32,680 nt of DNA from Bifidobacterium breve. GTDB taxonomy: Bacteria > Actinomycetota > Acidimicrobiia > Acidimicrobiales > Acidimicrobilacustridaceae. Of the stretch, positions 4,957 to 32,487 are shown in pieces. Position 1 is the stretch's first letter. Each line of letters starts with the position of its first letter. Where the stretch lies: assembly GCA_945862505.1 (NCBI GenBank), contig CAMAYJ010000026.1, positions 1 through 32,680 of the forward strand, given 5' to 3'. Both the position numbers and the translations under genes were made by a program. The notes under the pieces are model-generated. The model was not told the origin of the DNA, did not search any database, and worked only from the letters and a program-made list of their open reading frames with translations.

Positions 4957-4998
4957 TTTCGTCCGAGTTGTAGCCGGCGTTATTTGGGGGAGTTCACG

Positions 4999-6204
4999 AT
5001 GTCTCTAGGCCTTGTAAAAGAGATCGATTTCAACGAATTCCATCGTGGGGAACTTCAACAGTTCCTAGGCGATGGGCGCGGAGCCAATGCTGCGGTGGCG
5101 ATGCCATCTGGTCGGTCTCTGACCATCGTTGTTGGTAACGATGCTTGGACCTATCGGTCAACCGGTGTCGATATCGAAGTAGTTGAGGGTCGAGCCGTTG
5201 GTTTGACGATCTCGCTTGAGCGCGATGCGTTCAGTGACTTTGTTAATGAGATGTGGTCGGTGTTCGGACTTCTCTATGGAGAACGCTTAGTTCTCGAAGT
5301 CGGTTCCTTCGAACACCTCGTTGCTTGGGAGCCGGTTCTCCAATCGCTTTGGTTCGATCGTCCGATTTACGCGGCAACCGAGAGTTCGGATTTTGTTGGC
5401 CGAAATGGACAGCCACTCTCACTCAACCAGTCGTTCACCCTCGATGACGACGCCGACGAGATGTCCCACTTCCTACAGACTTGTGGCTACTTGGTTCTTC
5501 GAAATGTGTTCAGCGCAGAAGAGATTGCAGCGATGAACGAGGTCGTCGAACGCGAGCGGCAAGGTTCCACCCCAGATGACAAGCGTTCGTGGTGGGCGAC
5601 AGACTCGGACGGCAATGAAGTCTGTTGTCGCGTGACCTACCTCGCTGAACGTGATCAGGTATTCGCCGACCTTGCCGCTGACGATCGCTTGAAAGCAATC
5701 GCATCCTTTTCGGGTGCGCAACTGTTGCCCTGTCCAGATCGCCTCGATGGCTTGGGCGTGGTCATCAAGAATCCTGGCGTGGTTGAAGGCTTGTCCGATC
5801 TGCCTTGGCACCGCGACTGCGGAATGGGTGGACACTTCGTGTTGTGTCCGGGCCTCAATGTGGGAGTTCAGCTCGACGAAGCAAGCGCGGAAAACGGACA
5901 ACTCTGGTTCCTGGCCGGTTCGCACCACCATGCGGCACAGTCGCTTGATATGTCACAGATCAATGGTTTGCCCGCCATTGCTGTCAATGCACAACCTGGC
6001 GATGTCACGGTTCATTTCGGTCACGTTATGCATGCTGCACCGCCGCCCAGTTCACCGACAGCAAATCGCAAAGCGGTCTATGTGGGATTCCACGTTCCGG
6101 AACTTTTCGATGTCATTGGTCCGGGTCAGGCCTACAACGACGTTCTCTTCACCCACGGCGACGGTCGCGTGCGATCAGTTGAAGAAACGTCTAGCGGCAA
6201 TTGA
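4999..6204 (+). CDS. PhyH-type Fe(II)/2-oxoglutarate dioxygenase with extra N-terminal domain
   Basis: This 401-residue protein ends in a phytanoyl-CoA-dioxygenase-like double-stranded beta-helix domain (about 150-375). The iron ligands are visible as H271-R-D273 in LPWHRDCGMGGH and distal H345 in GHVMHAAPPP; R357 (NRKAVYVGF) fits the 2-oxoglutarate contact. Relatives hydroxylate or halogenate acyl-CoAs, ectoine and natural products. The first 145 residues are an added alpha/beta region I cannot name with certainty; strands such as LTIVVGNDAWTYRS and the pattern overall resemble a sterol-carrier/SCP2-like lipid-binding module, which is only a guess. ATG 4999 is chosen for the strong GGGGGAG ribosome site 6 nt upstream; a TTG at 4984 would place that site inside the gene. 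The stop lies 7 nt from the stop of the convergent Rieske-fusion gene. Confidence 0.85.
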   Translation: MSLGLVKEIDFNEFHRGELQQFLGDGRGANAAVAMPSGRSLTIVVGNDAWTYRSTGVDIEVVEGRAVGLTISLERDAFSDFVNEMWSVFGLLYGERLVLEVGSFEHLVAWEPVLQSLWFDRPIYAATESSDFVGRNGQPLSLNQSFTLDDDADEMSHFLQTCGYLVLRNVFSAEEIAAMNEVVERERQGSTPDDKRSWWATDSDGNEVCCRVTYLAERDQVFADLAADDRLKAIASFSGAQLLPCPDRLDGLGVVIKNPGVVEGLSDLPWHRDCGMGGHFVLCPGLNVGVQLDEASAENGQLWFLAGSHHHAAQSLDMSQINGLPAIAVNAQPGDVTVHFGHVMHAAPPPSSPTANRKAVYVGFHVPELFDVIGPGQAYNDVLFTHGDGRVRSVEETSSGN

Positions 6205-6211
6205 ATCGCTT

Positions 6212-7765
6212 CTAAGAAACTGGACGAATGCGCAACGTGCGTTCTTCGGCGTTGAGGCATTTCCCAGTTGTGCAGTCGAATCTCCAGCCGTGCAACGTGC
6301 AGACCAATTCATCGCCATCGATCACGCCGAAGACGGAAAGGTCGGCATCGCGATGGGGGCATGTGCTTTGGACGATCCAATCGCCGATCTGAATTTCCTC
6401 TTCGGCAATGCCGCCTCGGTCAGGATCGGCTTTGCGCAGCGCTTCGGCCTCAGTTCTGATCATTCGTTCTTCTGAGAGCGATTTGAAGAAGTTGTAGACG
6501 TATTCGTTGAACGGCCCCGATCGCCACGCTGAAAAGCGACAGGACAGGAACAACGAGTTGCTCCAGTCCACAGCGCGTTCGGCGGCGACGGTTTCTACAA
6601 GGCGGCGATCAATGGTGAAGCGAAAGCCGCACTCTGCGCCATCCCATTCCGACACGGTGCCGGCAGGGAAATCGATGGCGATCTTGAGTTCACCCATATC
6701 GATCACGCAAACAGCGCCTACGCCGTTGCGAAGATTCGGAGCAATAGCGAGTAGCGGTTCCCACCACTCTTTGAGTCGTTGCACGAGATCGTCAGTTGGC
6801 TGAACCCACTGTGACTTGTGGTCTTCGATCCATGGGAGCCAGTCACATTGGTACTCACGAAGGTAGGACTCTTTCTGTTCAAAGATCGAGGCAACCTCGC
6901 TCGCTGAACACGGATGCGTGACATCGATTCGGTCGGGTGTGAACGCAATGGTGGTTCCAGGAATAGCGAGGATCCCGGTGCGGCCAGCATCTGACAGTCG
7001 GTTTATGAACTCGACCTGATCGGGAAAGATGCTTAATTCATCTCCGTTGATCACGTTCATACCGAACAATTCGGGATCGAGAAAGGCTGGTGGTCCAGCG
7101 CTGGGAACGACGGCGCGTGCGTTGATGACCTCGACATACCGAAGTGCTCGAGCGAACTGGCTGTCAATCTTCGCGTCGATGAGTTCGCGCATGACGTCGG
7201 CTGGTTCGTCGTAGACCATTGGGTACCAAATTGCTCCGCTGTATTGCACCCAATGAAGATCGATGGGGCCATGAGCGGTAAGAGCAGCAAGGTCGTGGGT
7301 TCGACAATCGTTCTGATTTACGAGGCGTCCGGTGTCGGCGGAAACGACGAGTGCGGAATCGCCACCTGGACCATCGGTGATCGATGTCTCACAATGAATT
7401 GCGATTCGGGTGCTGCCCAGTAGGTCGATCTCTTTGCCGTCGACGGTTCGCACAAAGTTGACGAAACCGAGTTCGCGCAGACGATTCTCGAGTTCTCGAG
7501 TGGGGTAGCCGGGGAGAAGAACTGTTGCAGTGCGTTCGATGTGATCTGAAAGCCACAGCTCATCGAGATGATCACCGTGGATGTGTGAGATGTAGAGGTA
7601 GTCGGCCGATTCGATGCGGGATATCAAGTCAGGGGAGAGGCGGTCGTTGCGGGGGAATACGCACCACGAGCCATGGAACGCGGGAAGAAACCAAGGGTCA
7701 CACACAATGGACACATCGGTGGTCTCGATGAGGATTCCCGCGTGACCGATTGATGTTGCCTTCAT
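6212..7765 (-). CDS. Metallo-beta-lactamase-fold protein fused to a C-terminal Rieske [2Fe-2S] domain
   Basis: This 517-residue protein joins two metal centres. The N-terminal part is a metallo-beta-lactamase fold of the UlaG/NAPE-PLD-like type, opening with GHAGILIETTDVSIVCDPWF and carrying an intact HIHGDH motif (H61, H63, D65, H66), followed by GDSALVVSADTG. After a middle region of about 200 residues, the C-terminus holds a complete Rieske cluster site: C469-P-H471 and C489-TL-H492 (CTLHGWRF), separated by 17 residues. The same two folds occur together in CMP-N-acetylneuraminate hydroxylase, but there the Rieske domain comes first. The protein may therefore be an oxygenase of an N-acyl or amine substrate, or a hydrolase with a redox domain; the substrate is unknown. 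It converges with the PhyH-type gene and has its own promoter-like box. Confidence 0.85.
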   Translation of the reverse strand: MKATSIGHAGILIETTDVSIVCDPWFLPAFHGSWCVFPRNDRLSPDLISRIESADYLYISHIHGDHLDELWLSDHIERTATVLLPGYPTRELENRLRELGFVNFVRTVDGKEIDLLGSTRIAIHCETSITDGPGGDSALVVSADTGRLVNQNDCRTHDLAALTAHGPIDLHWVQYSGAIWYPMVYDEPADVMRELIDAKIDSQFARALRYVEVINARAVVPSAGPPAFLDPELFGMNVINGDELSIFPDQVEFINRLSDAGRTGILAIPGTTIAFTPDRIDVTHPCSASEVASIFEQKESYLREYQCDWLPWIEDHKSQWVQPTDDLVQRLKEWWEPLLAIAPNLRNGVGAVCVIDMGELKIAIDFPAGTVSEWDGAECGFRFTIDRRLVETVAAERAVDWSNSLFLSCRFSAWRSGPFNEYVYNFFKSLSEERMIRTEAEALRKADPDRGGIAEEEIQIGDWIVQSTCPHRDADLSVFGVIDGDELVCTLHGWRFDCTTGKCLNAEERTLRIRPVS

Positions 7766-8130: not shown

Positions 8131-9423
8131 TCAGCCCGGAACGGCGAGTTGCGCCCCGACCGAACCTGGAGCAGGTGCATCCCATGCGGTGCCGCCGGTT
8201 CGTCCGCCAAGTTCCGGGCATTCGCCGGCGAAGATGCCCCACGAGCACTCCCATCCGGGGACGACCCAGTTGTGCATCATCCAAATATTTTTGTTCGCAG
8301 ATTTGCGACCACCGATAGCTGCGCAGTCCTCGGCGCTCATGGCCTCGCCACCAATAACTAGTCCGCCCTTCGAACAGAGGCCCCCATTGCTGTTGTGCTG
8401 GTGCCAGACGTCGTTCGCTCCCGCGAAACCTTCTGGGGCGCCACCGAGATGAAAGACGAGATAACTCAGCCCGACGAGTTTTGAATCAGGGTTCGTGCCG
8501 TCGAAGAGGAGTTCCGACGGTTTGGCTGGATCAAAGGAAATCACGAGTCGAGCGTTGGTGTAATGCGCTCCGATGCAGGGAATGTACGCAGTCGACTTCT
8601 GATAGCCGCCGGCTAACGCGTCTGCAACCGTTGGAAATTTCGTCACGACAGATCTCGCCAGATCTTGTTGAGCCGTGAGTTTCACACGTTCGTCGCGAGT
8701 GAGTTCAACCTGAGGAGTCGATCCACGATGGCTGTGTCCCTCGGCGTCGGTAGCGACCTGCCCGGGCGATGATGGGGGTCCCGAGAGTTCACACGGTGTG
8801 GCGGTAGTGGCGGATATTTCTGTGGTGCCGCCGTGTGCATGTCCCGCAGTGTCGTGAGCTTCGGTGTAACTGGGGGTGAGCATGATCGCCCCGAGTACGA
8901 CAGCAACTGTGCCAACGGCAAGCGCAGCAAAGCGCAGCGATATTCGTTCACGGCTTGGGCGCTGCAGCAGCGAAGGAAATGCAAGCGCAACAATCGCAAG
9001 CACAACAATGATTCCTTCAACGGCCGAAGAAATATTGCTAGGGGCAGAGAAGGATTCTGTCTGAAGTGCTTCAGGGCCGAACGGAAGACCAACGGTGGCT
9101 AACACAACCCACGTTGCGATGATGGCGAGGTTGACAACGATCGCAGATGCCCACACCCATCGGCGTGGACGGGCGACGATCAGGAGAGCAAAAGAGCATT
9201 GGTACGCAGCGATGGCTAGAAAAACCCAGCCGTGGGCCCAATCATCTGCGAGGTGATGGGGTGCGTATCCGAAGTGCACTGCCCCGACGGTTAAAGAAAG
9301 AACGGCGGCTAGCCAACGCACAGTGAGGTCCCGATCGAATTGATCGGAATGTCCTCGCGTGCCCGAAGATTGTCCAAGCACCTGCTTGTCAGGTTCGTTT
9401 GTGTTGGTGATTCCAGACTCCAT
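8131..9423 (-). CDS. Unrecognised five-TM protein with exported His/Cys-rich domain
   Basis: I do not recognise this 430-residue protein. Five hydrophobic helices are visible (about 36-52, 64-83, 89-111, 132-151, 163-182), followed by a 250-residue soluble part that an odd number of helices would place outside the cytoplasm if the N-terminus is inside. The linker is rich in histidine (EAHDTAGHAHGG at 189-199, EGHSHRG at 229-234). The C-terminal domain has conserved-looking motifs: CIGAHY (283-288), FHLGG (324-328), VWHQHN (339-344) and MMHNWVVPGWECSWG (382-396), with cysteines 350, 367, 393 and 402. The His/Cys pattern suggests metal binding (copper or zinc) or a disulfide-stabilised domain. 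ATG 9423 has GGAG 5 nt upstream and also a TAATCT box 9 nt upstream. Confidence 0.8.
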   Translation of the reverse strand: MESGITNTNEPDKQVLGQSSGTRGHSDQFDRDLTVRWLAAVLSLTVGAVHFGYAPHHLADDWAHGWVFLAIAAYQCSFALLIVARPRRWVWASAIVVNLAIIATWVVLATVGLPFGPEALQTESFSAPSNISSAVEGIIVVLAIVALAFPSLLQRPSRERISLRFAALAVGTVAVVLGAIMLTPSYTEAHDTAGHAHGGTTEISATTATPCELSGPPSSPGQVATDAEGHSHRGSTPQVELTRDERVKLTAQQDLARSVVTKFPTVADALAGGYQKSTAYIPCIGAHYTNARLVISFDPAKPSELLFDGTNPDSKLVGLSYLVFHLGGAPEGFAGANDVWHQHNSNGGLCSKGGLVIGGEAMSAEDCAAIGGRKSANKNIWMMHNWVVPGWECSWGIFAGECPELGGRTGGTAWDAPAPGSVGAQLAVPG

Positions 9424-14824: not shown

Positions 14825-14967
14825 GAACACAGGACGGAGAAGGTCAGGTGCATCGTTGCGCTGGCATGTTGGGACCGTCTTCTTCCACCTCATTTATCTG
14901 CATCGCTTCACTGTCGCCTTTTCACACCAGAGCAGCAGGCCCAGAGCTCCAACGGGAGGCTCACCCC

Positions 14968-16056
14968 ATGGCCGGGAATATTTTCAACTCGATTTCTTCG
15001 AGTATCTCCAAATCGATCGCTTCACGAGACTCGCTGTCCAACATTGTCGGACGCGACATGGCCGTCGATCTCGGCACCGCCAATACCCTCATTTACGTTC
15101 GCGGCGAAGGCATCGTGCTCAATGAGCCATCAGTAGTCGCCATCAACGTCAAAGACGGGCGGCCCGTTGCCGTAGGCGCCGAAGCAAAACGCATGATCGG
15201 GCGCACGCCATCTCATATCCAGGCGATTCGTCCCTTACGTGACGGCGTTATCGCCGATTTCGACATCTGCGAAAAAATGCTTCGCTATTTTATTCAGAAG
15301 GTTCATACTTCGAAGTGGGCCAAGCCACGCATGGTGATCTGTGTTCCTTCCGGGATCACTCCCGTTGAACAACGAGCCGTGCAGGAAGCCGCAGAGTTCG
15401 CCGGAGCACGTAAACCGGCATACATCATCGAAGAACCAATGGCTGCTGCAATCGGCGCTGGGTTACCAGTCCAGGAACCCACTGGGAACATGATCGTCGA
15501 TATCGGTGGCGGAACGACCGAAGTTGCTGTTATCTCGCTCGGCGGAGTTGTGACCTCGCAATCGGCACGCGTCGGTGGCGATGCCATCGATGCTGCGATC
15601 ATCAGCTACATCAAGAAGGAATACAGCCTCGCCCTTGGCGAACGTACCGCCGAAGAAGTCAAAATAGCGCTGGGCTCAGCATGGCCTCTTGAGATCGAAT
15701 TGCACGCGGAAATTCGCGGCCGCGACCTTGTTACTGGTCTCCCGAAAACCATCGTGACGACGACCGAGGAAATTCGTGAGGCGATTGAAGAACCGGTAGC
15801 TGCAATCGTCGACGCAGTGAAAGTCACCCTCGACAAGACCCCTCCGGAACTGTCTGCCGACATCATGGAACAAGGCGTTGTGCTTGCTGGCGGTGGAGCG
15901 TTACTTCACGGAATCAGCGAACGGCTCGAACATGAAACCGGTATGCCGATCATCATCGCCCAAAATCCCCTGTTCGCCGTCGCTATCGGCTCGGGCCAAT
16001 CGCTTGAGGAGTTCGACGCATTGAAGGGCGTGCTCTTCTCGTCGACCATCAACTGA
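14968..16056 (+). CDS. mreB: MreB, actin-like rod-shape protein
   Basis: This 362-residue bacterial actin polymerises under the membrane and steers lateral peptidoglycan synthesis. The nucleotide-binding motifs are phosphate-1 DLGTANT (34-40), phosphate-2 DIGGGTTE (178-185), and adenosine LAGGGALLHG (306-315); IIEEPMAAAIG (153-163) is the conserved interdomain segment. The N-terminal 25 residues (NIFNSISSSISKSIASR) could form an amphipathic membrane-binding helix. ATG 14968 is chosen because GGGAGG lies 8 nt upstream; a longer in-frame reading from 14848 has no family similarity. It opens the mreB-mreC-mreD-mrdA-rodA series and implies a rod or elongated cell. The single mreB here resembles the arrangement in other MreB-bearing actinobacteria. 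Confidence 0.96.
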   Translation: MAGNIFNSISSSISKSIASRDSLSNIVGRDMAVDLGTANTLIYVRGEGIVLNEPSVVAINVKDGRPVAVGAEAKRMIGRTPSHIQAIRPLRDGVIADFDICEKMLRYFIQKVHTSKWAKPRMVICVPSGITPVEQRAVQEAAEFAGARKPAYIIEEPMAAAIGAGLPVQEPTGNMIVDIGGGTTEVAVISLGGVVTSQSARVGGDAIDAAIISYIKKEYSLALGERTAEEVKIALGSAWPLEIELHAEIRGRDLVTGLPKTIVTTTEEIREAIEEPVAAIVDAVKVTLDKTPPELSADIMEQGVVLAGGGALLHGISERLEHETGMPIIIAQNPLFAVAIGSGQSLEEFDALKGVLFSSTIN

Positions 16057-16069
16057 GTCGATCTGCACC

Positions 16070-16900
16070 ATGGCGTCGTCGAGGCGAAGAGGACGAACAC
16101 GTATAACGATCAGTCTGTTGCTTCTGTCGGCAGTTTTCCTTCTAACTCTTGATAGTCGTGGGTCAGGGCCCGTCCAATCCGCCCGGAGTGCTGTGGTGTC
16201 GGTGCTGTCCCCACTGGGCAGTGCTGCCGCGATTGTTGTTAATCCCTTTCGGAACGCTTGGGATAGCGCATTTGATCAAGGGAATCTCAAGAACGAGAAT
16301 GAAACACTCCGTGAGGAAAACGATCGTTTGAAAGGCGATGTAACGGCCAACTCCATAGCGAAGAAACAGTTGCAGCAACTTCTGCAACTTGTCGGTATTC
16401 CATTCGTTGGCGATACCCCTGTCGTGCACACCCGTGTTCTTTCCGGTGCTGTTGGAAACTTCGGCGATCGAATCGAACTCGATAAGGGCTCGAATTCGGG
16501 CATCGAGAGAAATATGCCGGTAGTGACCGGCGAAGGGCTCATCGGAAAAGTTATCGAAGTAAGCGAGAACCGTTCAGTTGTGTCGCTTCTTTCGAGTGGG
16601 ACCTACAGGGTCGGGTTCTCTGTCGTAGGGACTGCTGCCATCGGGATTGCACAGGGCAGTGGTGGCGATGGCAGCCTCCGCGGAACCAATATCGATTCTC
16701 GCCAGGCAGTGACAGTGGGAGCGATCACTGCGACGAGCGGCTTAGCGGGCAGTCCGTTTCCTCCGAATCTTCCGATCGGCACGATCACCGCAGTTCGAAC
16801 CAATGAGGCGGCACTCGAATCGACTATTGATATTTCGATGTTCGCTAACCTCAACGATCTCGTCTACGCCGATGTCGTCCTATGGAAACCCGCTGGCTGA
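16070..16900 (+). CDS. mreC: MreC, rod-shape-determining periplasmic scaffold
   Basis: This 276-residue protein has a short basic cytoplasmic tail (RRRGRTR), one membrane helix (about 11-27) and an exported part. A coiled coil (about 70-108; ENETLREENDRLKGD) is followed by the two beta-domains typical of MreC, with GDRIELDKGSNSGIERNMPVV and a 'GLIGKV' turn. MreC activates the PBP2-RodA synthase and links it to MreB. It starts 13 nt after mreB and has no clear ribosome site, so translation probably depends on the operon. The length is within the family range. Confidence 0.93.
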   Translation: MASSRRRGRTRITISLLLLSAVFLLTLDSRGSGPVQSARSAVVSVLSPLGSAAAIVVNPFRNAWDSAFDQGNLKNENETLREENDRLKGDVTANSIAKKQLQQLLQLVGIPFVGDTPVVHTRVLSGAVGNFGDRIELDKGSNSGIERNMPVVTGEGLIGKVIEVSENRSVVSLLSSGTYRVGFSVVGTAAIGIAQGSGGDGSLRGTNIDSRQAVTVGAITATSGLAGSPFPPNLPIGTITAVRTNEAALESTIDISMFANLNDLVYADVVLWKPAG

Positions 16901-16903
16901 GTC

Positions 16904-17413
16904 ATGAATAACCCTGCACTGCGTTATCTGATTGTGATCGCGACAGCGGCGGTGCTGCAGTACACGGTCGTCACGCAATTTCGTATCTTGGGAGTGAGTG
17001 CCGATCTGTTCCTGCTTATCGCCGTAGCAGCAGGCATGATCGGTGGCGCTGAACGTGGAGCAATCGTGGGCTTTGCCAGTGGACTTTGTCTTGATCTGAT
17101 GGTGACAACGCCTTTCGGACTCTGTTCAATCTCAGGACTTGTTGCCGGTGTCGTGGCTGGCTTACTTGAGGACGCGACTATCCATTCCGCTCGGTGGCTG
17201 ACGATGGTGATTGCTTTTCTGGCGAGTTCCGCTGGAATTCTTTCGTTCGCCATTGCGGGAAACCTGCTTGGCCGTCCAGATCTGCTCTCTGGACACCTCT
17301 TCACGATCCTTGGGATCGTCGGAGTCGCATCTGCTGCACTGGTGTTTCCCGCTCTAAGGGCCTGTCGATGGGCAGATCCGGAAGATTCCCTCCTCCGGGC
17401 TGCAGCCCGCTGA
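16904..17413 (+). CDS. mreD: MreD, rod-shape-determining membrane protein
   Basis: This 169-residue protein is almost entirely hydrophobic, with about five membrane helices (for example YLIVIATAAVLQYTVV and LFLLIAVAAGMIGGAERG). The segment GFASGLCLDLMVTTPFGLCSISGL matches the MreD pattern 'G...GL..D.....lG...l'. It works with MreC in the elongasome. It starts 3 nt after mreC and is followed by a 79-nt gap before mrdA. The last 15 residues are charged. The sequence is divergent, as usual for MreD, so position in the operon adds much to the call. Confidence 0.9.
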   Translation: MNNPALRYLIVIATAAVLQYTVVTQFRILGVSADLFLLIAVAAGMIGGAERGAIVGFASGLCLDLMVTTPFGLCSISGLVAGVVAGLLEDATIHSARWLTMVIAFLASSAGILSFAIAGNLLGRPDLLSGHLFTILGIVGVASAALVFPALRACRWADPEDSLLRAAAR

Positions 17414-17492
17414 GGGCCTTGATCTGCTGAACTGTGGGAGCCGTGATTCTCCAGCTCGTGCATCCCACCGCCTTCGCGTAAACCCCTGACCC

Positions 17493-19448
17493 ATGGACAC
17501 CTCCTCGCCTCGTCTCCGCATGAGCATTCTTGGAGTTGTCGTTCTCGGGTGTTTCCTCGCCCTCTTCGCTCGGCTTTGGTACCTGCAGGTAATGGAAGCA
17601 CCTGCTCTCGCTGTCCAAGCGACGGCGAACCGCACTCGAACGGTCGCTACAGAAGCACCTCGTGGTCGCATTTTCGACGCGAAGGGTCGGGTGATTGTCG
17701 ACAACCGAACCTCGCTCATCGTTTCAATCGATCGTAACGAATTGAAGAAAGTGAAGAATCGCGACGACCTCATCGCAAGGCTTGCCGATGTTCTGACAGC
17801 GAATGGTGCGCCGATCAAGATCTCCACGATCGAGAAACGGTTGTCGGACAAGAAAGCTGACCAGTTGCAAGCACTTCCAATTGCCTCTGATGTCACCGAC
17901 GAGGTCATTCACCATCTTTCGGAGTATGCCGAAGATTTTCCTGCGGTTTCTTATGAGCGCAAGACAGTCCGCGTGTATCCCTACGGTACGATTGCATCGA
18001 ACATCCTTGGTTACACCGGTCGCATCACCGCCGAGACACTCAAGAGGTTGGAACCAGGAACTGATCCTGATGGAGTTGAGAAGTCCTATCAACCAGATTC
18101 CATCATTGGGCTGGCCGGAGTTGAATCGACCTACGAAAAGGAACTTCGCGGTACACCTGGCATTGAGTTGGTGCAGGTTGATTTCAAGAATCGCCCAGTT
18201 GGTACTGAGTCGTATCAACCCCCGAAGTCTGGCAACGATATCCAGCTCCATATCGATATCGAAGTTCAGATTCGAGCCGAGCAGGCGCTCGTCGAGCGAC
18301 TGAATGTTTTGCGTGGGACAGCCCAACGAGACGGCACAATTCGAGGCGCTCCAGCGGGTTCCGTTGTCGTGCTTGACCCTCGAGACGGGGGAGTTGTGGC
18401 GTTGGCATCGGCTCCGTCGTATGACCCCCAGGAGTTTGCAGTTGGGATCACCCAGGAGCGTTACAACCAGCTTCAAGACGTCAACGGGGCGAGTGCGCTG
18501 ATTGATCGTTCAATCACCGGCCAGTATGCGCCCGGCTCTACGTTCAAACTTGTGACTGCTGCTGCTGCGTTAAGTAACGGGCTCATCGATGGGAACTCAT
18601 CGATATACGACGATGGCGTCTACCGGGTTGGCAATCCCGTTCAGGAATTTACCAACGCCGGCAAAGAAAAATATGGAAATGTCAACGTGGTTCGCGGCCT
18701 TACGGTCTCGTCGGATGTTTACTTTTATTGGCTTGGCGACCGCATGGACGGAACCACGCTGATTCAGGACGCTGCGACAGCATTCGGTTTCGATAAGCGA
18801 ACCGGCATTGATCTCCCGAATGAATCGGCCGGCTACGTGCTGACCAAAGCCGAGAAGAAGGCACTTTCCAAAAAGTACCCCGACGCCTACCCGAATGGCG
18901 ATTGGTACACCGGCGACAACGTCCAGTTGGCGGTAGGTCAGAATGTGATTGTGGTTACTCCGTTGCAACTTGCTCGCGCGTATGCGGCATTTGCGAACGG
19001 TGGCACCGTCTACCAGCCACATGTGGTGTGGAAGATTCTCAGGCCCAACAGCACTACAACAGATCCATCTGATGTTCTGCGGGTGCTCGAACCGGTGGTC
19101 ACAGGCACCGTGACGCTCCCGCCCGATGTCCGTGGTCCAATTGCTTCAGGGCTCGAAGGAGTTACAAGCGGCTCTGGAACTGGGGCCTCGGCCTTCGTGG
19201 GTTTCGACCAACAGGCCTTCCGCATTGTCGGCAAGACGGGAACTGCTCAGGTCGATGGCAAAGCCGATACTTCGCTCTTCGCTTCGTATGGGCCTGCTCT
19301 CTCGCCGAAATGGGTGGTGGCCGCAGTCATGGAGGAGTCGGGCTTTGGCTCCGAAGCTTCGGGCGAAGTCGCTCGTCGGATCTATGAAGTGATCGCGAAT
19401 CAAGCGCTCACTGGTGCTGGAACCGCAACGAACGGATCGATGGACTGA
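17493..19448 (+). CDS. mrdA: Penicillin-binding protein 2, elongasome transpeptidase
   Basis: This 651-residue protein is a class B PBP that crosslinks peptidoglycan together with RodA. It has one N-terminal membrane helix (about 11-33), a dimerisation/pedestal domain beginning at EAPRGRIFDAKGRVIVDN (54-71), and a transpeptidase domain. The active-site motifs are S349-TFK (PGSTFKL), SSD (406-408, the PBP2-type version of SxN in SSDVYFYWLG) and KTGT (581-584). An in-frame TGA lies just upstream of ATG 17493, so the start cannot be earlier. No ribosome site is visible in front of it. The stop overlaps the rodA start by 1 nt (TGATG), so the two subunits of the synthase are coupled. The alternative symbol pbpA is used in some actinobacteria. 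Confidence 0.95.
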   Translation: MDTSSPRLRMSILGVVVLGCFLALFARLWYLQVMEAPALAVQATANRTRTVATEAPRGRIFDAKGRVIVDNRTSLIVSIDRNELKKVKNRDDLIARLADVLTANGAPIKISTIEKRLSDKKADQLQALPIASDVTDEVIHHLSEYAEDFPAVSYERKTVRVYPYGTIASNILGYTGRITAETLKRLEPGTDPDGVEKSYQPDSIIGLAGVESTYEKELRGTPGIELVQVDFKNRPVGTESYQPPKSGNDIQLHIDIEVQIRAEQALVERLNVLRGTAQRDGTIRGAPAGSVVVLDPRDGGVVALASAPSYDPQEFAVGITQERYNQLQDVNGASALIDRSITGQYAPGSTFKLVTAAAALSNGLIDGNSSIYDDGVYRVGNPVQEFTNAGKEKYGNVNVVRGLTVSSDVYFYWLGDRMDGTTLIQDAATAFGFDKRTGIDLPNESAGYVLTKAEKKALSKKYPDAYPNGDWYTGDNVQLAVGQNVIVVTPLQLARAYAAFANGGTVYQPHVVWKILRPNSTTTDPSDVLRVLEPVVTGTVTLPPDVRGPIASGLEGVTSGSGTGASAFVGFDQQAFRIVGKTGTAQVDGKADTSLFASYGPALSPKWVVAAVMEESGFGSEASGEVARRIYEVIANQALTGAGTATNGSMD

Positions 19449-20593
19449 TGTTGCCGCAATCGATTTCCTCTCGTGCGTCAAAGTTGAGCCGGCGCGATCC
19501 AACCGCACCGCTTCGACACATCGATCCCGTGCTCATCGGATGCACGGTGGCTCTCTCGATCTTGGGAGTAATCGCTGTGTATAGCGCAACGCGTGGTCCG
19601 GGGCCCGACTATTCGAAGTCGTATTTGTATAAGCAGACGATATTCATGGTCATCGGCGCAGGAGCGATGGTCTTTTGTAGCGTTGTTGACTACCGAAAGC
19701 TTCATGACTGGGCGTGGGTGTTTTATGGGATTACCACCGCTCTGCTTGTGCTCGTTGTCTCTCCGTTGGGTAGCGAAGTCAATGGAGCAAAATCATGGTT
19801 TTCCCTGGGACCGTTTCAGATGCAGCCTGCAGAGTTTTCAAAGCTGTCGCTTATTGGCGTCCTCGCGTTTTTGCTTTCGGAGTTTCGCGGTGATGTTGAC
19901 ATTCGGCGACTCGTTGCACTTCTCGCGACGGCTGCGCTGCCTATGGCTCTCATCATGTTGCAACCGGATCTCGGTGAGACACTGATCCTTCTTGCCATCA
20001 CGATGACGATCATGCTCGTGGGAGGACTCCCCACGAAATACATCGCGGTGCTCACGATCGTTGGCTTAGTAGGCGTCGTGGGCGCATTGAACTCACCGCT
20101 ATTAGCGGACTATCAGCGCGACCGGTTGACTGCTTTCGTGAACCCGAGCGATACCTCGAACGCTGCCCTCTACAACATCGAACAGAGCCAGCAGGCCATC
20201 GCCAATGGCGGGATCACTGGTCAAGGTCTTTTCGATGGTCCGCAAACAAAGTTGGGTTTTGTCCCTGAGCAACAGACGGACTTCATCTTTACCGCCGTTG
20301 CTGAGCAGTTTGGCATCATCGGAGCATCCACAATGCTGTTCTTGTACGGGCTGCTCTGTTACCGGATCTGGAGAATCGCCCAAGTTGCCAAGGATTCATT
20401 CGGCACGTATCTCTGCGCTGGAGTCTTGGCGATGTTCGCCTTTTCGGCGTTTGAGAACGTGGGTATGGCAATGGGGATCATGCCAGTGACAGGTATCCCT
20501 TTGCTTTTGATCAGCGCGGGGGGTTCGGCAACCATCACGGCATTGGCCGGACTTGGCCTTGTTCTCAACGTTTACATGCGCCGGTTCCAGTAG
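19448..20593 (+). CDS. rodA: RodA, SEDS peptidoglycan glycosyltransferase
   Basis: This 381-residue polytopic protein polymerises lipid II into glycan strands in complex with PBP2. About ten membrane helices are visible after a short basic N-terminus (SRASKLSRRDP). The SEDS signature is present: PAEFSKL (127-133), DYQRDRLTAFVNP (221-233), GQGLF (258-262) and PEQQTDFIFTAVAEQFG (273-289), with the catalytic-loop aspartate D278. It is coupled to mrdA by a 1-nt overlap and closes the morphogenesis operon; the next gene 31 nt downstream has its own promoter-like box. Confidence 0.95.
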   Translation: MLPQSISSRASKLSRRDPTAPLRHIDPVLIGCTVALSILGVIAVYSATRGPGPDYSKSYLYKQTIFMVIGAGAMVFCSVVDYRKLHDWAWVFYGITTALLVLVVSPLGSEVNGAKSWFSLGPFQMQPAEFSKLSLIGVLAFLLSEFRGDVDIRRLVALLATAALPMALIMLQPDLGETLILLAITMTIMLVGGLPTKYIAVLTIVGLVGVVGALNSPLLADYQRDRLTAFVNPSDTSNAALYNIEQSQQAIANGGITGQGLFDGPQTKLGFVPEQQTDFIFTAVAEQFGIIGASTMLFLYGLLCYRIWRIAQVAKDSFGTYLCAGVLAMFAFSAFENVGMAMGIMPVTGIPLLLISAGGSATITALAGLGLVLNVYMRRFQ

Positions 20594-28466: not shown

Positions 28467-29560
28467 TGGTCGTTGTCGTAAAAATCGGAACATCATCGCT
28501 CACCGATTCCGAGGGGAGCATCCGTAAAGACGCCATCGTAAAATTGTGCGATGAGGTCGCCACTGTGCGGGCCACCGGCCACAGTGTTGTCATCGTTACA
28601 TCTGGTGCAATCGGCGCGGGGCTTCCTGCGCTTGGGCTGGGTGGTGCGAATCGTCCTACTGACTCGCGCACGCTCCAAGCTGTTTCTGCAGTTGGTCAGT
28701 CGCGTCTGATGGGTGTTTACTGCGAGGCGCTCGATCAGCATTCACTCGTTGGTGGCCAAGTTCTTCTCGCACCGTTGGACTTTGTCGACCGCCGTCAATA
28801 TTTACAAGCGCGCGGGACGCTCACGCGCCTGCTTGAACTTGGCGTCGTGCCGATCGTCAATGAGAACGACGCCGTTGCCGACGATGAAATTCGGTTCGGC
28901 GACAACGATCGACTCGCGGCCCTTGTTTCACATCTTGTCGACGCTGAACTTCTCGTACTGCTCACCGATACCGCTGGGCTGCTCTCGGCCGATCCCCGCC
29001 TCGATCCCGATGCCTCGTTGATCGAGGAGATCATCGAATTCGATCAGCAACTCGACGAAATCGCCGGTGGCCCTGGCACCCCTGGCGGCAGCGGAGGAAT
29101 GGCCTCAAAGATTTCAGCGGCAAAGATCGCCGCATGGTCTGGCGTTCGCACTGTGATCGCCGCAGCTCACCGTCCTTCAGTTCTCACTGATGCAGTTGAA
29201 GGAGTCAGCGGTGTCGGCACGATCGTTGCTGCTCACCAACGGGATCTTCCCGCCCGCAAGCTTTGGATTGCCTTTGCTGTGCGGTCTTCCGGGGTGGTCT
29301 CTGTCGATGCGGCAGCCCGAGCGGCTCTCGAAGGCGGTGGAGCTTCGCTGCTTGCGGTTGGCGTGGTCGGAGTCCAAGGAGACTTCGAAATCAATGATGC
29401 CGTGGAGATAGCAGACCAAAACGGCTTGGTCTTTGCGAAGGGTCTTGTTCGTCAGAGTTCCTCGACGCTCGCAAACTCGTTGGCCCGTTCGACGACAGGC
29501 CTGTCGACCGAGGTTCCTTCACATGTGGTTGACGCAGACGACCTTGTGATTCTTTCCTAG
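28466..29560 (+). CDS. proB: Glutamate 5-kinase
   Basis: This 364-residue enzyme phosphorylates glutamate in the first step of proline synthesis. It has an amino-acid-kinase domain (VVVVKIGTSSLTD at the N-terminus, NENDAVADDEIRFGDNDRLAALVS, LTDTAGLLSADPR, GTPGGSGGMASKISAAKIA) and a C-terminal PUA domain (about 275-364), the usual architecture. ATG 28466 is used; a GTG one codon earlier is equally in frame, and AGGAGG lies about 4 nt upstream. It overlaps obgE by 1 nt. Its TAG stop is interlocked with the TAG of the convergent murJ in a CTAG. proA, its pathway partner, follows only after the inverted murJ. Confidence 0.95.
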   Translation: MVVVVKIGTSSLTDSEGSIRKDAIVKLCDEVATVRATGHSVVIVTSGAIGAGLPALGLGGANRPTDSRTLQAVSAVGQSRLMGVYCEALDQHSLVGGQVLLAPLDFVDRRQYLQARGTLTRLLELGVVPIVNENDAVADDEIRFGDNDRLAALVSHLVDAELLVLLTDTAGLLSADPRLDPDASLIEEIIEFDQQLDEIAGGPGTPGGSGGMASKISAAKIAAWSGVRTVIAAAHRPSVLTDAVEGVSGVGTIVAAHQRDLPARKLWIAFAVRSSGVVSVDAAARAALEGGGASLLAVGVVGVQGDFEINDAVEIADQNGLVFAKGLVRQSSSTLANSLARSTTGLSTEVPSHVVDADDLVILS

Positions 29561-31146
29561 CGACGCAGCAGGCGAGTCATCGTGAGTCTTGCCTCATCAA
29601 CTCTGAGGAGAACGAGCGACCCGGCATAGACGCCGGTTCCGAGACCGACTGCACAGAGAACGGTCACGAGATCGCTCAGATCGGTGAAGCGGAGAAACGC
29701 CCAGACGGCGATTCCCATCACCGCCGCTGAGAGAACGAGTTTCGCAATTGTCACGATGGTGGAAGCGTCGAAGAATCTCCCTATTCGGCGATGAAGAAGA
29801 AATAGTGCAATGAAAGCGAAGACTGTGTAAGCGATTGATCCGCTCGCGCCAAGCCCGACAACACCGAAGCGGTCGACGACGGCAAAGGCGATCACCAGGG
29901 CGAGAATTGTTTCCGATGCGTTTATATAGAAGGGAAGTCGCGTGTCGCGCTGGGCATAAAAACCTCTCATTGCAAAGAGGAAGAGTGAGAAAGCCGGGAG
30001 GCCAAAGAGAAATGCAATCAGCGTGTTCGCGGTCGTTTCGGCATTCGATTGGGTGAACTCTCCGTGTGCCAGCACAAGTCGAACGATCGGCCCCGCAAGC
30101 AGAATCATGCCGATAGAGGCCGGTATCGCGAGAACAAGCACAAGCCGCAGGCCTGAACTGAAACGACGTCGAAGGCCAGAAGCATCGGCGGCAGCATGAA
30201 GCGCCGAGAGTTCAGGCGTATAAGAGGTCATGACCGAGACGGTCCATAGCCCGTAGGGAAGTTGAAAAAAGAGCCAGGCGTAGGCATAGATCGAAACGCC
30301 ATCGACACCATTGGCCAACGTTTGAATGATTCCGTAGGCCACGAGATTCGAGACGACATAGCCAAACGTCCAACCGGAAAGACGGCCAACCTCGCGTACG
30401 GCAGGGTCGCGAAGATCAAAGTTCCAATGCAATCGAACTCCGGCCGATCGCATTGCGGGCCACAGAACCAACGTCATGGCCAGTAGTCCGGCAGTAGTGC
30501 CGAAACCGAGTAGCAGCAAGAGTCCGGTGTCGTGACTGACCTGATCGAAGGTAAGTGCTTTGCCGGCAGCGAGATGGGGGAGGGCAAGGAAGAGGCAAAT
30601 AACGACGACATTGTTGAGTACCGGGGCAAATGCGGGAACTGCAAAAGAGCGCCGGGCATTCAGCAGAGCAGTGCCCAGACTGGTGAGTCCGTAGAAAAGT
30701 ATCTGGGGCGCAAACATCATCAGAAGCGGGACTGCAATTTTCGCTTGCGTTGCTGCATCTGCGCTTGAAGAGGAAAGGTTGTAGAGGCGGATAATGATGG
30801 GGGAGAGAGCGATGCCCACAACAGTGGCAACCACAAGGACGACACTGATGACTGTTGCTAACGCGTCGATGCCGCGGTTGTCATCTCGCCCCGTGTGGGC
30901 AACGACGACGGGAACGAGGGTGGCGGAAAGAATGCCGCCAAGCACGAGGTCGTACAGCAGGTTGGGTGTGTTGTTCGCCAGGTTGTAGGCCTCGGCCAGT
31001 GCGGTGGCACCGATGGCGTAGGCCATGACTCCGACACGGAGAAACCCTGTGAGTCGGCTGAGACCAGTGCCAAGAGCGACCAAGGCGCTTGAGCGCACGA
31101 GATGATGGGTTCTCTGTGCTGTCACGTCCTCGGCAGAGCTGCTCAT
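29557..31146 (-). CDS. murJ: MurJ/MviN family lipid II flippase
   Basis: This 529-residue membrane protein has about 14 helices and belongs to the MOP superfamily. Its N-terminus shows the MurJ pattern SSALVALGTGLSRLTGFLRVGVMAYAIGATALAEAYNLANNTPNLLYDLVLGGILSATLVPV, and later FAPVLNNVVVI and QRDTRLPFYINA occur at family-typical places. It flips lipid II across the membrane and so supplies the MreB/PBP2/RodA machinery encoded upstream. ATG 31146 is preferred because the -10 box TAGCGT lies 8 nt upstream; an in-frame start at 31239 would overlap the proA promoter region. The large soluble and kinase-like extensions seen in mycobacterial MviN are absent. It sits inverted between proB and proA. 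Confidence 0.92.
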   Translation of the reverse strand: MSSSAEDVTAQRTHHLVRSSALVALGTGLSRLTGFLRVGVMAYAIGATALAEAYNLANNTPNLLYDLVLGGILSATLVPVVVAHTGRDDNRGIDALATVISVVLVVATVVGIALSPIIIRLYNLSSSSADAATQAKIAVPLLMMFAPQILFYGLTSLGTALLNARRSFAVPAFAPVLNNVVVICLFLALPHLAAGKALTFDQVSHDTGLLLLLGFGTTAGLLAMTLVLWPAMRSAGVRLHWNFDLRDPAVREVGRLSGWTFGYVVSNLVAYGIIQTLANGVDGVSIYAYAWLFFQLPYGLWTVSVMTSYTPELSALHAAADASGLRRRFSSGLRLVLVLAIPASIGMILLAGPIVRLVLAHGEFTQSNAETTANTLIAFLFGLPAFSLFLFAMRGFYAQRDTRLPFYINASETILALVIAFAVVDRFGVVGLGASGSIAYTVFAFIALFLLHRRIGRFFDASTIVTIAKLVLSAAVMGIAVWAFLRFTDLSDLVTVLCAVGLGTGVYAGSLVLLRVDEARLTMTRLLRR

Positions 31147-31154
31147 CGGCGATA

Positions 31155-31160
31155 ACGCTA
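31155..31160 (-). promoter_or_regulatory. -10 box of murJ (TAGCGT)
   Basis: On the minus strand TAGCGT ends 8 nt before the ATG at 31146, the leaderless distance, and the hexamer equals that of ndk. No ribosome site is present, and the divergent proA promoter lies about 35 bp away. Confidence 0.45.
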
Positions 31161-31192
31161 GTTCCCACCGTTCCTCGCCGACGTGAGCCCTA

Positions 31193-31220
31193 CTGACCCG
31201 AATGCCTTGGCGAGTAACCT
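31193..31220 (+). promoter_or_regulatory. Promoter of proA (CTGACC-16-TAACCT)
   Basis: CTGACC (31193-31198) and TAACCT (31215-31220) are 16 nt apart, and the -10 box ends 7 nt before the ATG at 31228, suggesting a leaderless proA mRNA independent of proB. Confidence 0.5.
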
Positions 31221-31227
31221 TTCTGGG

Positions 31228-32487
31228 ATGAGTAAACATGATGCTTCAACGCCTATTGCCGAACTTGGTCGTCGTTCAAAGGCTGCGTCAAGGGCGTTAG
31301 CTACCGCATCCACCGAGCAGAAGAATCACGCACTGCATGCTGCTGCAGATCGACTCGTTGTTTCTTCTGACGCAGTCCTCAGCGCGAATGCTGTCGATGT
31401 GACCCGCGCCGAAGCCGATGGGGTGAGTTCCACGGTGGTCGATCGACTGCGACTCGACGAAAAGCGGATCGCTTCGATGGCTGGGGGACTGCGCCAAGTC
31501 GCATCATTGGCCGATCCTGTCGGCGAAATTATCGATGGTTGGGTGCGCCCCAACGGGCTTCGCATCTCCCGCGTGAGAGTTCCGCTTGGTGTTATTGCGA
31601 TCATCTACGAGAACCGTCCCAACGTCACCTCCGATGCAGCTGGACTCTGTTTGAAAGCAGGGAACGCGGCGTTCCTTCGTGGCTCCTCGGGAGCGATCGA
31701 TTCGAACATTGCTATTGAGACTGTTTTACGTTCGGCGATAACAGAAGCGTCGTTGCCTGCCGATTCGGTGATTCTCGTTGCTGATACTTCGCGTGAAGCG
31801 GCTGTTGAGTTCATGCGTCAACGTGACACGATCGATTGTCTGATTCCACGCGGCGGACCCTCGCTTATTGCATCGATTCTCGAGAACGCGACTGTTCCCT
31901 ATGTGATCGATGGCGACGGAAACTGTCACGTGTATGTCGATGTCGATGCTGATCTTGAAATGGCCATCCAAATCATTGTGAACGCCAAGATGCAACGCCC
32001 ATCGGTTTGCAACGCAGCGGAGACCCTGCTTGTCCATCGTGATGTGGCTGGCGAGTTCCTGTCGAGAGCAGTGTCTGCGTTAGCCGGCGTAGAACTGCGC
32101 GCCGACCAGCGGGCGCTCGAGTTTCTACCCGGAGCGACCCTGGCAACCGAGGAAGATTGGTCTACTGAATTCCTCGACCTCACGCTGGCTGTCGGCATTG
32201 TCGACGACCTCGATGCGGCAGTCGAGCACATCGCTCGCAATGGTTCCGGGCACTCAGAGGCGATCGTTACTCGTTCGCTCGAGGCTGCCGACCGCTTCAC
32301 TCATGAGGTCGATGCGGCCGCCGTTCTTGTCAACGCATCGACCCGATTCGTCGATGGTGAAGAGTTCGGATTCGGAGCCGAGATTGGCATCTCAACCCAG
32401 AAACTGCACGCCCGAGGACCGATGGGGCTCCGTGAACTCACGACAGCCAAGTTCATCGTGCGAGGCCAAGGACAAACCCGAGGCTGA
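31228..32487 (+). CDS. proA: Glutamate-5-semialdehyde dehydrogenase (gamma-glutamyl phosphate reductase)
   Basis: This 419-residue NADPH-dependent enzyme reduces gamma-glutamyl phosphate, the product of ProB. It has the aldehyde-dehydrogenase fold with PLGVIAIIYENRPNVTSDAAGLCLKAGNAAFLRG (119-151), the active-site Cys261 in KMQRPSVCNAAET, and the C-terminal EFGFGAEIGISTQKLHARGPMGL. The length is nearly that of the E. coli enzyme (417). ATG 31228 is preferred over an upstream GTG at 31183, which would add 15 unconserved residues and would include the promoter. The usual proB-proA pairing is split by the inverted murJ, and proA has its own promoter-like sequence. Confidence 0.96.
   Translation: MSKHDASTPIAELGRRSKAASRALATASTEQKNHALHAAADRLVVSSDAVLSANAVDVTRAEADGVSSTVVDRLRLDEKRIASMAGGLRQVASLADPVGEIIDGWVRPNGLRISRVRVPLGVIAIIYENRPNVTSDAAGLCLKAGNAAFLRGSSGAIDSNIAIETVLRSAITEASLPADSVILVADTSREAAVEFMRQRDTIDCLIPRGGPSLIASILENATVPYVIDGDGNCHVYVDVDADLEMAIQIIVNAKMQRPSVCNAAETLLVHRDVAGEFLSRAVSALAGVELRADQRALEFLPGATLATEEDWSTEFLDLTLAVGIVDDLDAAVEHIARNGSGHSEAIVTRSLEAADRFTHEVDAAAVLVNASTRFVDGEEFGFGAEIGISTQKLHARGPMGLRELTTAKFIVRGQGQTRG

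Follow-up and report, generated by a model that had tools for sequence, protein, structure and literature searches.

The window analysed here, a stretch of 32,680 nucleotides, carries at positions 6212..7765 of the minus strand a gene for a protein of 517 residues, with its ATG at 7765 and its stop at 6212; the plus-strand reading of the same interval contains many stops. The product begins with MKATSIGHAG, and because this beginning is common to its relatives, the start codon is credible. Three domains follow one another along the chain. The N-terminal one is a metallo-beta-lactamase (MBL) domain of the UlaG/CmlA-like type (residues 1 to ~285, with an approximate end; 6911..7765, minus strand), which is recognized by Foldseek, by profile matching and by a Lactamase_B_3 match in Pfam at residues 4-74 that falls slightly below the cut-off (E 1.1e-4, 22.7 bits against 24). 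Next comes an SCP2_Rv3818 domain (PF25451; residues 327-440, 6446..6787, minus strand), scoring about 143-147 bits (143.2 in the Pfam search) against a cut-off of 28.2 and covering positions 1-115 of the 119 in the profile. The C-terminal domain is a Rieske [2Fe-2S] domain (PF00355 match at 6242..6373, minus strand; E 4.5e-10, 39.7 bits, cut-off 20.3). The first-pass annotation, made from the letters of the window, had already recognized the MBL fold and the C-terminal Rieske domain within one chain and had pointed out that their order is the reverse of that in the CMP-sialic acid hydroxylase CMAH. Both statements hold. It had also placed a region of about 200 residues between the two metal sites; the region exists but is not blank, being occupied by the last part of the MBL fold, by long helices and by the SCP2-like domain.

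The metal-binding motifs lie in the translation of the minus-strand ORF exactly where they had been placed: HIHGDH, of the HxHxDH type, at residues 61-66 (7568..7585), the first Rieske ligand box C469-P-H471 (6353..6361) and the second one C489-T-L-H492 (CTLH, residues 489-492; 6290..6301), all on the minus strand. In an alignment of 106 full-length relatives, H8, H61, H63, D65, H66, D131, G132, P133, D136, N152, D153, H471, C489 and H492 show no variation, and C469 is kept in 105, the single exception being an X. The motif pair is not a matter of chance, since HxHxDH and the Rieske ligands are, but for this X, unchanged throughout this set. The first-pass claim that both metal sites are complete stands for the Rieske ligands, for HxHxDH and for D153, but we do not accept it literally for a zinc-type MBL site, since at the third and last zinc-ligand positions we found no histidine that is kept in all 106 aligned sequences. 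Near the third position there are instead the invariant acids D131 and D136, part of a D131-GPxG-D136 motif (7358..7375, minus strand) that we propose as an acidic stand-in for the third histidine; H171 is present in 101 of the 106 sequences. In the HMM alignment D131 is three columns off the relevant glutamate of CmlA, itself a metal ligand, and D153, within the N152-D153 pair (7307..7312, minus strand) proposed as the bridging-Asp position, falls at the CmlA stretch 'aaDs'. The lack of invariant histidines there, together with the invariant acids, suggests that the ligands are those of HxHxDH along with D153 and probably an acid; such a set would be nearer to the site of a CmlA-type oxygenase than to that of a zinc hydrolase.

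An AlphaFold2 model built with 35 family sequences has a mean pLDDT of 90 and a pTM of 0.84; its weakest regions are ~441-460 and some stretches of the Rieske domain. Searched with Foldseek against the PDB, it matches TM1162 (3x2z), FrsH (8a90), CmlA (5kik, 4jo0) and NAPE-PLD (4qn9) with E values of about 1e-11 to 2e-10, matches that by their nature arise through the MBL domain. The family sequence profile places FrsH first among solved structures (2.1e-8), and for the MBL part alone the order is FrsH (2.6e-8), CmlA (1.3e-4) and then NAPE-PLD. The PDB copy searched contained no full-length relative with a solved structure.

As judged by the match to PF25451, a domain that takes its name from M. 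tuberculosis Rv3818, the protein is a member of the Rv3818/NamH family. The gene Rv3818 is namH; its product hydroxylates part of the muramic acid, converting the N-acetyl into the N-glycolyl form (PMC6194230). We made the link to Rv3818 through PF25451 and through nocardial and rhodococcal homologues. The NamH protein has been described as having a UlaG domain at the N-terminus and a Rieske domain at the C-terminus (PMC10050696), so that the 'inverted CMAH' is simply the published NamH architecture. The MBL-then-Rieske order had been put forward as a possible new arrangement; profile searches instead reveal a widespread, named and genetically characterized family (Rv3818/namH, PF25451), an outcome that the first-pass annotation had itself named as a refutation, and the suggestion of novelty has to be given up. 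The guess at the chemistry fared better. The suggested oxygenase, with a Rieske centre feeding an MBL metal site and N-acyl groups among the possible substrates, agrees with what is known of NamH (N-acetyl of muramic acid, O2) and was correct without there being a new architecture, while the lipid headgroup and NAPE-PLD readings found no support. NamH uses molecular oxygen with UDP-MurNAc as the substrate, and is present in Nocardia and Rhodococcus and absent from Corynebacterium (PMC10234563). The enzyme may act on a precursor that follows UDP-MurNAc, because in a two-hybrid-type assay MurF was the only Mur ligase partner of M. tuberculosis NamH (PMC3605390). Walls are N-acetylated in Corynebacteriaceae and N-glycolated in Nocardiaceae, Mycobacteriaceae and Gordoniaceae (PMC6113628), and this division fits our profile search, in which none of the 14 control genomes, among them C. 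glutamicum, had PF25451. The window's genome has murB. Taken together, the gene very probably encodes a NamH-type N-acetylmuramic acid hydroxylase, that is, a known enzyme in a new place, an uncultured actinobacterium of the Acidimicrobiia, and not a new kind of enzyme.

Full-length relatives (37-95% identity) are widespread in Acidimicrobiia and extend to Nocardia, Rhodococcus, Tsukamurella and bins of Chloroflexota. Scanning genome contigs gave 79 loci, mostly from Acidimicrobiia and ranging from 95% down to ~54% identity, with more distant ones (41-46%) in Egibacteraceae, Thermoleophilia and Chloroflexia; the window's organism stands close to bins labelled Microthrix or Microthrixaceae. A match with E of 1e-100 or better over most of the query was counted by eye in 37 of 396 sampled genomes of the phylum, the window's own genome included, and the cultured Ilumatobacter nonamiensis also carries a homologue. 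Homologues of Nocardia farcinica, Rhodococcus ruber and Tsukamurella tyrosinosolvens, taken from records in a plasmid collection, are co-linear with the window protein (38-40% identity, 99-100% coverage, E down to 3e-111), and each has SCP2_Rv3818, Rieske and MBL matches in Pfam. In the tree the window protein is nested within Acidimicrobiia, next to relatives of 93% and 83% identity, and the Mycobacteriales-type proteins form a separate, well-supported clade; the tree gives no sign of a recent transfer of the window gene.

Several observations on individual records are worth mentioning. Outside Actinomycetota, three homologues of ~41-43% identity come from bins with the labels Chloroflexia and Thermobaculum. 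One of them is on a contig of ~102 kb. The three form a single clade in the tree; apart from this, a binning error is possible. On a Microbacterium sp. plasmid (L125:4001-5758) the annotation divides a homologue into three CDS (MBL, hypothetical, Rieske), and our match to it was likewise in three pieces, owing to frameshifts or sequencing errors. Five public MAG records titled 'Bifidobacterium breve' (L006, L036, L050, L055, L062) carry Acidimicrobiia-type namH loci, in L006 and L036 together with the window's neighbouring genes, and all five titles look wrong. MBL proteins of 470-606 residues from Halobaculum and other genomes (L120-L123) match the NamH-type MBL domain at ~28-32% over 180-250 residues; they have no SCP2 or Rieske domain in Pfam, for which reason we took them to be another family and left them out, and their C-terminal parts are uncharacterized.

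A PhyH-like gene at 4984-6204 is convergent with the window gene, and the vicinity also holds two tRNA genes, trigger factor, clpP, clpX and genes for an acyltransferase and a TauD-like protein. The PhyH, acyltransferase, TauD and clpPX neighbours are conserved, but in close relatives only and are not specific to muramic acid, so we dropped them as a functional clue. In more distant relatives, the shared flanking ORFs, taken without annotation, did not obviously include a recurrent mur or sugar gene. Also kept in close relatives is a 430-aa ORF between tRNA-Gly and tRNA-Pro (8131-9423, minus strand) that has no Pfam or NCBIfam match. Wall elongation machinery is encoded on the same contig, by a cluster of mreB, mreC, a class B PBP gene and rodA (14848-20593) and by murJ (29557-31239); these genes lie 7-23 kb from namH, and we treat their presence as coincidence. 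The arrangement is different in R. ruber YYL, where on the plasmid pYYL1.1 namH is divergent from murB, confirmed by NCBIfam. The murB product makes UDP-MurNAc, the substrate sugar of NamH, and the two genes of pYYL1.1 are possibly a plasmid-borne wall-modification pair. This plasmid is conjugative, and a gene for a CHAP-domain protein adjoins namH/murB (L118:3751-6551). In R. ruber MSA14 and T. tyrosinosolvens namH is near serS, beside genes for a HAD hydrolase and a lysophospholipid acyltransferase, which presumably resembles the Rv3813c-Rv3818-serS region of M. tuberculosis.

Our analysis establishes the family, the domain order, the fold and the conserved ligand residues of the window protein. 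The product, the use of O2 and the cytoplasmic precursor of the NamH family are known from the literature; for the window protein, we infer the electron path and the iron nuclearity. Electrons would pass from an NAD(P)H-fed reductase or a ferredoxin to the C-terminal Rieske cluster, and from there to an iron site in the MBL domain formed by H61, H63, D65, H66, D153 and probably D131. With the O2 that it activates, this site would hydroxylate the N-acetyl methyl of UDP-MurNAc, or of a UDP-muramyl precursor that comes later in the cytoplasmic pathway, adding a single oxygen atom, and the resulting N-glycolyl sugar would then be incorporated into peptidoglycan. The SCP2-like domain likely aids substrate binding or the docking of the Rieske domain.

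Might the protein be a NamH paralogue that hydroxylates the N-acetyl group of some other N-acetylated nucleotide sugar, such as a precursor of an envelope polysaccharide? A shift of substrate is conceivable because the protein has only about 38-41% identity with those of Mycobacteriales; moreover, the Acidimicrobiia and Mycobacteriales groups have different sequences around residues 124-130, and the gene is unlinked to mur genes within the window. Against this, the core residues are common to the whole family, nearly all positions of SGAIWYPMVY (176-185) being invariant, the window's genome has a single PF25451 gene, and the gene is spread through Acidimicrobiia as would be expected for a wall trait. 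We therefore regard a different substrate as unlikely.

The two other explanations that we considered have next to no probability. That the protein is a CMAH homologue with swapped domains could be argued from the two folds, which CMAH also has, and from a reaction of the same type; however, besides the reversed order, there is a named SCP2_Rv3818 domain between MBL and Rieske that CMAH does not have, and no sialic acid genes were seen within the window. A hydrolase of the UlaG/NAPE-PLD type, with the Rieske domain as an accessory, would account for the HxHxDH motif and for the Foldseek and sequence matches to NAPE-PLD and TM1162, but hardly for Rieske ligands that are invariant or for the lack of an invariant histidine at the third and the last position of the zinc ligands. 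In addition, the diiron oxygenases FrsH and CmlA are closer by profile and the named family is an oxygenase. Both are virtually excluded in favour of a NamH-type hydroxylase.

If the window gene is indeed namH, it is a reasonable prediction that the wall of the organism carries N-glycolylmuramic acid. Muramic acid in its N-glycolyl form serves as a chemotaxonomic marker for mycobacteria and their relatives and acts as a NOD2 ligand, and in mycobacteria it raises resistance to lysozyme and beta-lactams. The modification is usually described in Mycobacteriales and Micromonosporales, and our literature searches found nothing on the muramic acid type or chemistry of Ilumatobacter or Acidimicrobiia. 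The new element is modest: uncultured Microthrixaceae-like Acidimicrobiia and some Chloroflexota are likely to have an N-glycolylated cell wall. On balance, it seems probable that uncultured Acidimicrobiia commonly N-glycolylate the muramic acid of their walls and that some Chloroflexota do so too; less likely, the Acidimicrobiia branch uses a different N-acetyl sugar. The frequency of namH in uncultured Acidimicrobiia and its presence in Chloroflexota bins suggest for this mark a greater age or a broader distribution than it is usually given. On the side of enzymology, testable ligand candidates for the NamH family come from the conserved residues and from the link to CmlA/FrsH, although the enzyme itself is not new.

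Among known systems, CMAH also combines an MBL fold and a Rieske domain in one chain and turns an N-acetyl methyl into N-glycolyl, but has the Rieske domain first and uses another nucleotide sugar; we set it apart by its described architecture. UlaG, the UPF0173 protein TM1162 and NAPE-PLD share the MBL fold and the GHA and HxHxDH motifs, whereas they are hydrolases with additional histidine ligands and lack a Rieske domain. CmlA and FrsH, diiron MBL beta-hydroxylases (monooxygenases), share the MBL-fold oxygenase domain and give the best profile matches and top-ranking fold matches to the N-terminal domain of the window protein; they have no Rieske domain, possess an N-terminal non-MBL half and act on carrier-bound amino acids. 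With NamH (Rv3818) itself the window protein has in common the order of MBL (UlaG-like), SCP2_Rv3818 and Rieske domains, a similar length and all metal-ligand candidates, and it differs in coming from Acidimicrobiia, in being ~60% diverged and in having other gene neighbours.
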